Origin: Candidatus Enterenecus stercoripullorum
Lineage (GTDB): Bacteria; Bacillota; Clostridia; Oscillospirales; Oscillospiraceae
Direction of reading: 5' to 3'
NCBI GenBank assembly: GCA_018716015.1
Contig: DVKM01000057.1
Location: 1 to 64,000 of the forward strand
Length of the DNA stretch: 64,000 nucleotides
A program made the position numbers and the translations under genes. The notes under the pieces are model-generated. The model had not been told where the DNA came from and did not search any database. It saw nothing but the letters and a program-made list of their open reading frames with translations. This document shows, in pieces, positions 21,638-53,760 of this stretch (the first letter of the stretch is position 1; each line of letters opens with the position of its first letter).

Positions 21638-21756
21638 CCAGTCCACGCTGTCCCGGGGCCCCACAAAACATCGTTTTGTGGGGAGAGGAGCCACAGCGGA
21701 GCGAGCGAGCTTTCGCCGTCAGGCGGAAGCGAGGAATGTGAAGCTTGCGGCGACGA

Positions 21757-21787
21757 GGTGAAGGGCCAGCAGGCCACAGGGTATTGA
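21757..21787 (+). repeat. 31-bp direct repeat, copy 2 (1 mismatch), offset exactly 150 bp
   Basis: GGTGAAGGGCCAGCAGGCCACAGGGTATTGA. Confidence 0.95.
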
Positions 21788-27429: not shown

Positions 27430-27792
27430 ATGAGGTATCCAAAGAACCTAAGGGTCATTGAGGGGGTTCTGCATACGCTGGGACTTTTGGGTTCCTCTAT
27501 TTCCATGCGGCAAATGGTGTGCGCGGTGGAACTTGCCCATGAGGACCAGAGTCTCCTGACCAACGTCTCAAAGGGATTATATGAAAGGGTGGCAAAGGAA
27601 TTCGGCAACACCAACAGCGCGGCGGTGGAACGGAATTTGCGGGCCCTTCGTGACAGGCAGTGGACCAAAGGGGATGTGGATCGCCTACGGGAGATGGCCA
27701 TGTACCATATGAAGGTGAAGCCATCCACGGGGGAGTTCATTGACATCATCCGGCATTACATGGAGGCAAACGACCTGTTTCCCGACTGCTGA
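27430..27792 (+). CDS. Stand-alone Spo0A C-terminal (DNA-binding) domain-like protein
   Basis: LLTNVSKGLYERVAKEFGNTNSAAVERNLRALRDRQWTKGD resembles Spo0A effector domain; no receiver domain in 120 aa. Confidence 0.75.
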   Translation: MRYPKNLRVIEGVLHTLGLLGSSISMRQMVCAVELAHEDQSLLTNVSKGLYERVAKEFGNTNSAAVERNLRALRDRQWTKGDVDRLREMAMYHMKVKPSTGEFIDIIRHYMEANDLFPDC

Positions 27793-27836
27793 TGAAAGGA
27801 AAGAAGCCGGCGACAGCCGGCTTCTTTCCTTTCATC
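27791..27836. terminator. Bidirectional terminator between convergent genes
   Basis: Perfect 21-bp inverted repeat GATGAAAGGAAAGAAGCCGGC-gaca-GCCGGCTTCTTTCCTTTCATC. Confidence 0.85.
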
Positions 27837-28701
27837 ACTTCCCGGCGCTTCTGCGTTGGGCTTTTTTCAGTTTCAGCGTGTCTTTCCGGCGCAAAAACTC
27901 CCTTCTTGCCGCCTCCGCTGCTGCCTTGATGTCCTCCGGGCGGACCACATAGCGCCCTACGGTTTTCATGTTGGCGTAGCGCTTCCGAAACCTGCGGCTC
28001 TGCCGCTCCAGCTTCGCGATCTGCTGGCGGTAGGATTCCTGGAGCGCGGCAACCTGCTCCCCGTATTTTTCCTTGAGCTGGGCTGAATGGGTCTCTAGCA
28101 AATTGCTCAATTCTGCTTTTCCCAGCGCGAATTGGAGCTGGAGTTCCTGGCCTGCGGCGGTCACTCCGGCAACCAGTTTGGACATTAGAGCCAGATGCCG
28201 TACAGTCAGCACCGTATCCACCAGCAGGATGGTCAGCAGGACCGCGCATAGGGCGTTTACAAGCCAATGCGGTATGAGCCAATAGAGCCGCTCGATGGGG
28301 GGGTGGATCCAAAAGATCACCACATAAGACAGCACACCCCACACCAGCGCAACCCAAAGGCAGACGCGCCCCTTGAGATTGAAACGGAAATGGGAATAGT
28401 CCCAATACTTCACGTGGGTGGTGACCTCCAGCAGCCAGCCGACAAAGTATTCCCAGGTACTCATCACCACAACGGCCACCACATAAAAAAGCGGCAGATT
28501 CCCTTTCAGCGGCGTGAAGAAGAGGATCATCAGCAGCACCCCTGTGCCGTAGATGGGGCAGATTGGGCCGTACAGAAAGCCGCGGGGAACCAATCGGTGC
28601 TGCAAGATGGAGCAATAGCAGGTTTCCATAAGCCAGCCCAGGAAGGAATAGAGGATAAAATAGAGAAACAGTTCCGTGATTGGATGGCCTAGGATCGTCA
28701 T
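27835..28701 (-). CDS. Putative ABC transporter permease-type membrane protein (CmpB-like)
   Basis: FILYSFLGWLMETCYCSILQHRLVPRGFLYGPICPIYGTG plus coiled-coil C-terminus. Confidence 0.75.
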   Translation of the reverse strand: MTILGHPITELFLYFILYSFLGWLMETCYCSILQHRLVPRGFLYGPICPIYGTGVLLMILFFTPLKGNLPLFYVVAVVVMSTWEYFVGWLLEVTTHVKYWDYSHFRFNLKGRVCLWVALVWGVLSYVVIFWIHPPIERLYWLIPHWLVNALCAVLLTILLVDTVLTVRHLALMSKLVAGVTAAGQELQLQFALGKAELSNLLETHSAQLKEKYGEQVAALQESYRQQIAKLERQSRRFRKRYANMKTVGRYVVRPEDIKAAAEAARREFLRRKDTLKLKKAQRRSAGK

Positions 28702-33569: not shown

Positions 33570-33646
33570 GCGGCTGTAGCTCAGTTGGATAGAGTGTTTG
33601 GCTACGAACCAAAAGGTCGGGGGTTCGAATCCCTTCAGCCGTACCA
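33570..33646 (+). tRNA. tRNA-Arg (anticodon ACG)
   Basis: Cloverleaf GCGGCTGTAGCTCAGTTGGATAGAG...CTACGAA...GGTTCGAATCC...CAGCCGTACCA, CCA encoded. Confidence 0.93.
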
Positions 33647-33686
33647 GCGCGTGGCAAGCGTCATTTCGCTTGCCACGCGCTTTTTT
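33647..33686 (+). terminator. Terminator after tRNA-Arg
   Basis: Perfect 14-bp stem GCGCGTGGCAAGCG/CGCTTGCCACGCGC then TTTTTT. Confidence 0.92.
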
Positions 33687-33890
33687 ATTTCATTACAAAG
33701 CGCTTCGCCCGCTCATTTTGCCGCTCCCTTCTTCCAGCTGCGCCAGGGTTGCGTTGGGCTTCGGTTTGGTGTGCCGCCCCTTGAGCGTGATTTTCTGGTT
33801 ACCCGGGAAATATTGATTTCAACTTTCCCCTCTTAAGAAAGGACATCCTGATGGATGTCCCTTCTTTTTTATCAAAGTTGAATCAAACAC

Positions 33891-42424: not shown

Positions 42425-42428
42425 TGGG

Positions 42429-42886
42429 GCGAGCAAGCCTGTAAGCCGGGTTCTGTCTTTTAAGACAGCCATCTATCTAGACGTGCCGTTGCCGACACGT
42501 TCCAGCCACCTCCTAAACGCAGCCGGGCCGGCCTGTTGCGTTACCACGGTGTTGCTCCGGATAGAGTTTACAGCGATGAGCAGTTCCCAGTCATCGGGCG
42601 GGTGCTTATCTCCGCCTTTCCACCCTTACCATCCATTGCCTGTCAATGATTTCGACTATTTTATAAGTCTACCCATAAATAAGGCGGGCATAGCCGACAT
42701 TTTACGTCGGCTGCGGCCACGGGAATGTCAACCTCATTGACAGGCAATGGATGGCGGTATATCTCTGTTGCACTTTTCCTGAAGTCGCCTTCGGCGGGCG
42801 TTACCCGTTATCCTTGCCCTGTGGAGCCCGGACTTTCCTCATAAGCGGCCTTTCGGCCTGCCCACGCGGCTGTCCAGCTTACTCGC
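42429..42886 (-). ncRNA. rnpB: RNase P RNA (bacterial type A-like)
   Basis: Reverse strand GAGGAAAGTCCGGGCTCC ... AAGTGCAACAGAGATATACCGCC ... GGTAAGGGTGGAAAGG ... GACAGAACCCGGCTTAC; P1 arms GCGAGTAAGC/GCTTGCTCGC. Confidence 0.95.
42629..42754. repeat. 126-nt segment bounded by perfect 21-bp inverted repeat inside rnpB P12
   Basis: CCATCCATTGCCTGTCAATGA (42629-42649) / TCATTGACAGGCAATGGATGG (42734-42754); internal AGCCGAC/GTCGGCT hairpin. Confidence 0.9.
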
Positions 42887-53712: not shown

Positions 53713-53760
53713 AAAAACATCCTTGGCGGCCCCAGAAGAAGGGCCGCCAAGGATGTTTTT
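53713..53760. terminator. Bidirectional terminator between nuclease and lacZ
   Basis: Perfect 20-bp inverted repeat AAAAACATCCTTGGCGGCCC/GGGCCGCCAAGGATGTTTTT. Confidence 0.92.

Follow-up and report, generated by a model that had tools for sequence, protein, structure and literature searches.

The window analysed here is a 64-kb stretch of DNA from a genome (G000) of 1.83 Mb that is 87% complete. Its reverse strand carries rnpB, the gene for RNase P RNA, the near-universal RNA enzyme that trims tRNAs. The gene product is a class A bacterial RNase P RNA, scoring 251.6 bits against the RF00010 gathering score of 100 and aligning over its full length; the match (42885-42426) corrects the previously proposed RNA length of 458 nt to ~460 nt. 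Within the gene lies a long arm, hereafter ARM1, and the features of the locus are as follows.

42426..42885, minus strand: rnpB, class A RNase P RNA gene, 460 nt (RF00010, 251.6 bits, E 8.7e-81, model 1-367 complete).
42629..42754, minus strand: ARM1, the P12 arm, a 21-bp perfect stem plus an 84-nt branched core (from sequence, fold, RF00010 insert and homologues in rnpB of G161 and G119).
42734..42754, minus strand: 21-bp P12 stem, 5′ strand in rnpB sense (from sequence).
42629..42649, minus strand: 21-bp P12 stem, 3′ strand in rnpB sense (from sequence).
42735..42750, minus strand: sequence-conserved 16-bp block, 5′ strand CCAUUGCCUGUCAAUG, identical across three species.
42633..42648, minus strand: 16-bp block, 3′ strand CAUUGACAGGCAAUGG, with one change in three species.
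42652..42656, minus strand: inner 5-bp stem, 3′ strand (partner 42727-42731), pairing kept in three species.
42692..42712, minus strand: 9-bp covarying apical hairpin AGCCGACGU-AAA-AUGUCGGCU, in which G161 and G119 have double changes (A-U/G-C, U-A/C-G).

Positions 42629-42649 (CCATCCATTGCCTGTCAATGA) and 42734-42754 (TCATTGACAGGCAATGGATGG) are perfect reverse complements separated by a spacer of 84 nt, confirming the original prediction of a perfect 21-bp inverted repeat. Given the base composition of the 64-kb window, the chance expectation for such a repeat with a spacer of up to 200 nt is ~5e-6, and this one ranks as the second longest in the window. The longest (22 bp, 27790-27837) and third longest (20 bp, 53713-53760) are perfect short-loop hairpins and likely terminators. 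In the full-length RF00010 alignment ARM1 forms an insert in P12, between ACCGCC and GGTAAGGGTG, which supports the helix assignment made previously, and the second hairpin that had been noticed inside the core is real, with a stem of 9 bp.

ARM1 is a real RNA structure. Its predicted fold has an energy of -67.3 kcal/mol compared with a mean of -30.65 for shuffled sequences (z = -10.15), and in the fold of the whole RNase P RNA, a check proposed at the outset, the arm stays folded on itself; across the stretch spanning J11/12 through the 3′ side of P12, just two bases find partners elsewhere in the molecule. Covariation was assessed in an alignment of the three ARM1 sequences that are known (G000, G161 and G119). 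Compensatory double changes occur at 5 of the 43 pairs and maintain the structure, and 98.4% of cells are paired; shuffled alignments reached this level in 5 of 500 cases, while slid controls were at most 49% paired. Because only three ARM1 sequences are known, the covariation rests on five pairs. Among the outer pairs, AUCC/GGAU in G000 corresponds to GGCC/GGCC in G161.

Between G000 and G161 the arm has changed at 18/127 positions, faster than the rnpB core (9/321) and slower than the fourfold sites of the neighbouring murD (69/214, 32%). These changes are unevenly spread, as the 16-bp block of the stem differs from G000 at 0/32 positions in G161 and 1/32 in G119, compared with 14/84 and 23/83 for the 84-nt core (Fisher p 0.01 and 0.004, respectively); against the apical hairpin, with 6/18 positions changed, the p value is 0.001. 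Since the block is nearly unchanged while the core diverges, it seems to be held in sequence, beyond the need for pairing. With three sequences this conservation is suggestive and no proof, and a specific role for the block, for example as a protein site or an RNase III site, is possible. Each strand of the ARM1 stem is also a quasi-palindrome on its own.

The distribution of the arm was determined in a genus sample of 42 genomes, mostly incomplete assemblies. ARM1 was found only in rnpB and only in three of ~40 congeners: G000, G161 (88% match) and G119 (75% over most of the arm). A search with the 126-nt unit found no second copy in the 87%-complete G000 assembly, and neither DNA search nor R1, a covariance model of the three arms, gave a convincing copy outside rnpB in the 42 genus genomes. 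Beyond the genus, DNA search detected no copy in 395 other genomes of the order, while the R1 model found only weak chance hairpins in 400 other genomes of the family and nothing in 387 other genomes of the class; the family, order and class samples, of 388-401 genomes, overlap partly. A very diverged copy could escape, because only a few candidates from each genome are scored in searches of this size. BLAST returned no match to ARM1 in plasmids or phages, and the palindrome pattern had no match among IMG/VR viral contigs.

Several candidate matches were rejected. A single 16-nt half of the palindrome matched 32 viral stretches once each, as chance predicts, with the second half in none. Weak R1 matches in G060, G726 and G069 proved to be simple hairpins or unrelated folded sequence, and a 28-nt match in G112 represents one stem end alone, its partner arm missing. 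At loose thresholds the sole Rfam family reported for ARM1 was MIR5512, an implausible identity at 27.5 bits against a cut-off of 139.

A MurD tree places G000 and G161 as sisters, followed by G119 and G160. A single clade of ARM1 carriers is compatible with this tree (not rejected, p-AU 0.36). G160 has an rnpB core that is 96% identical and a P12 of 17 nt unrelated to ARM1, and the other congeners also have unrelated P12s, of 14-54 nt. Gradual growth of the helix is disfavoured because no intermediate between these short P12s and ARM1 was found among the congeners. The patchy distribution, with three carriers and an unrelated 17-nt helix in the sister species G160, bears out the earlier preference for abrupt gain over slow growth; judged from these comparisons, ARM1 made a sudden appearance in a single small group of species.

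Six other congeners (G106, G107, G104, G115, G128 and G162) carry a second, unrelated P12 arm of ~120 nt that also covaries. This arm is a copy of a dispersed structured repeat of ~111 nt, here named R2, with double changes at 15 of 33 pairs. R2 is absent from Rfam, where even loose thresholds gave nothing credible. A covariance model for R2 identified up to ~49 copies per genome within the genus and 22 in G000, including one in the window:

21653..21758, plus strand: R2 copy (covariance model R2, 92.6 bits, E 1.9e-19), downstream of a deoC-like ORF and between 30-nt near-identical direct repeats.

The 30-nt end of the deoC-like ORF (GTGAAGGGCCAGCAGGCCACRGGGTATTGA) recurs directly after this copy, as if a target had been duplicated by insertion. 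Direct repeats also flank a copy in G134 (45 nt, exact) and a copy in G128 (18 nt), while at most other copies examined none were found. The best score of the R2 model over ARM1, with filters off, was 1.4 bits, so ARM1 was rejected as an R2 copy. A region with strong hairpins at 33645-33763 (minus strand) of the window, directly after a tRNA gene (33570-33643), gave a very weak R2-like score of 8.8 bits. In another family of the order, P12 of the rnpB at L040 (G141) contains a tandem pair of R2-related units totalling 285 nt.

P12 arms differ even between species with nearly identical rnpB cores. The rnpB cores of G106 and G066 are identical at 323/323 positions, with a 121-nt R2 arm in one and a 14-nt P12 in the other; those of G107 and G130 match at 318/320 positions, with an R2 arm against an unrelated 53-nt P12 region. 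On the MurD tree, the presence of R2 in P12 requires at least six changes. Because the short P12s of G163 and G113 resemble deletion remnants of R2, both gains and losses are probable, and if R2 had been ancestral in P12 and deleted many times, part of the turnover would be losses and not gains. As far as the compared sequences tell, P12 in this genus is a site of turnover. Two assemblies each gave two rnpB matches (G105:C24 and G105:C3; G158:C13 and G158:C6), perhaps reflecting contamination or a second copy.

Taken together, we think it rather probable that ARM1 is a lineage-specific, cassette-like domain that abruptly replaced the distal P12 of a class A RNase P RNA, folds on itself and is one instance of recurrent P12 replacement in the genus. 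The arm would have entered abruptly, probably in a single event, in the ancestor that G000, G161 and G119 share, with G160 either having lost it later or having branched first; its source would be one with no copy detectable now. The tip of P12 points away from the catalytic core and tolerates self-contained hairpins, so a self-folding insert rising from the helix base could persist. Such replacement would have recurred in the genus, involving no fewer than two unrelated arms (ARM1 here, R2 elsewhere); because close relatives have another repeat, one found genome-wide, in this position, P12 resembles a place where foreign RNA hairpins land time and again. ARM1 is presumably transcribed and retained in RNase P RNA, where it would chiefly be carried along as a tolerated passenger, under constraint to fold by itself. 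The 16-bp block, with 0/32 and 1/32 changes, is nevertheless more conserved than a mere passenger helix predicts, and it may additionally bind something. A bolder version, to which we give little weight, makes P12 a genuine hot spot into which mobile cassettes of structured RNA insert, with ARM1 being one of them, kept for its 16-bp stem as a processing or binding site and possibly yielding a two-piece RNase P RNA.

The original prediction regarded ARM1 as a MITE-type element domesticated in the RNA. As regards the site this idea has merit, as a dispersed repeat, R2, does occupy P12 in relatives, and the perfect 21-bp terminal repeats around a non-symmetric core, together with the sudden appearance of the arm, are what a mobile palindromic element would leave. 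MITEs also occur in multiple copies in a genome or its relatives, whereas ARM1 is represented only by its rnpB copies: the proposed search with the 126-nt unit recovered homologues in rnpB of G161 and G119 and nothing elsewhere in its own genome, the genus, or the order, family and class samples, nor was the arm detected in plasmids, in phages or, as a palindrome, in IMG/VR. Additionally, comparison of the flanks ATACCGCC and GGTAAGGG shows no adjacent direct repeat in common that would mark a target-site duplication. It had been reasoned that a mobile origin would be wrong if all relatives had a P12 of similar length with covarying, diverged sequence and no copies elsewhere. The comparison of rnpB among relatives indeed found diverged, covarying arms in G161 and G119, which together with the lack of other copies weakens the mobile reading, but a similarly long P12 is not present in all relatives, so that reading stands unrefuted. 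We therefore regard a domesticated MITE-like copy, its other copies lost or residing in genomes outside the sample, as unlikely. At the opposite extreme, P12 could have grown slowly through slippage and correction by template switching, all without foreign sequence. Template switching can produce perfect palindromes and concerted changes, such as the AUCC/GGAU to GGCC/GGCC difference in the outer pairs, and P12 length does vary elsewhere in the genus; however, no relative has a homologous intermediate and the 84-nt core is not composed of stem repeats, making this route very improbable.

Two further explanations concern what the arm does. It could behave like the intervening sequences of rRNA, in which case RNase III would cut the stem of at least 21 bp, the arm would be removed, and the two pieces of RNase P RNA would be held together by structure. 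The long perfect stem of a size suited to RNase III, the branched core and the sporadic occurrence in three of ~40 congeners all resemble such sequences, and the conserved 16-bp block would suit a cleavage site; in Coxiella, RNase III excises the intervening sequence of 23S rRNA, whose terminal stem measures 28 bp (PMC4990558). However, a part that is excised and degraded would not need compensatory changes in its inner hairpin, the core shows no ORF, and R2 arms at the same site lack a comparably long perfect basal stem. Excision of this kind seems decidedly unlikely. Alternatively, ARM1 could have a specific function, for example through binding of a protein or RNA to the 16-bp block, or through kissing loops (CCUGU/ACAGG) if the strands form their own CAUUG/CAAUG hairpins. 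The contrast in divergence between block and core and the quasi-palindromic nature of either stem strand point in this direction. Against this, the alternative hairpins, at -2.5 and -3.3 kcal/mol, are weak relative to the long stem, and ARM1 is clade-restricted and lost or absent in G160; a dedicated function appears doubtful.

Among known systems, natural variation in P12 length (RF00010) involves the same helix of the same gene; no universally conserved nucleotide lies in P12, and some RNase P RNAs can do without this helix or lack it (PMC2858038). ARM1 differs from such variation in being a branched 126-nt domain with a stem conserved in sequence, and in this genus the identity of P12 switches between near-identical rnpB cores. 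ARM1 resembles the 23S rRNA intervening sequence in that both occur sporadically, have a long terminal stem and sit in a helix where a structured RNA tolerates insertion (PMC4990558), but the host of ARM1 is RNase P RNA, and ARM1 has no visible ORF. With bacterial MITEs and palindromic repeat elements it shares terminal inverted repeats and a short non-coding core, but not multiple copies or a target duplication; R2, for its part, is dispersed and has no long perfect terminal repeats. Vioque reportedly described, in 1997, STRR repeats inside rnpB of heterocyst-forming cyanobacteria. STRRs are short, dispersed tandem repeats, whereas ARM1 is a single copy, not tandem and without dispersed relatives, and R2 is a structured element of ~111 nt. 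We read ARM1 as a cassette-like replacement because P12 is a natural site for arms and because repeats in rnpB have been reported in cyanobacteria.

The case shows a whole arm of a near-universal ribozyme being replaced on the time scale of species whose rnpB is otherwise identical, and the pairs G066/G106, G130/G107 and G160/G161 offer natural material for probing the role of P12. The analysis also brought to light R2 itself, a dispersed structured repeat outside Rfam that lies in RNase P RNA and between tRNA genes. In three species (L174 in G129, L186 in G108 and L188 in G130), R2 copies were located inside a Gly-Arg-His-Gln-Lys tRNA cluster or next to it. Finally, in G107 a further copy (L173, 1501-1612) lies directly upstream of an apparent tmRNA 5′ end (GGGGGCGTACTGGTTTCGACGGGGATG), at a position where ARAGORN called no tmRNA.
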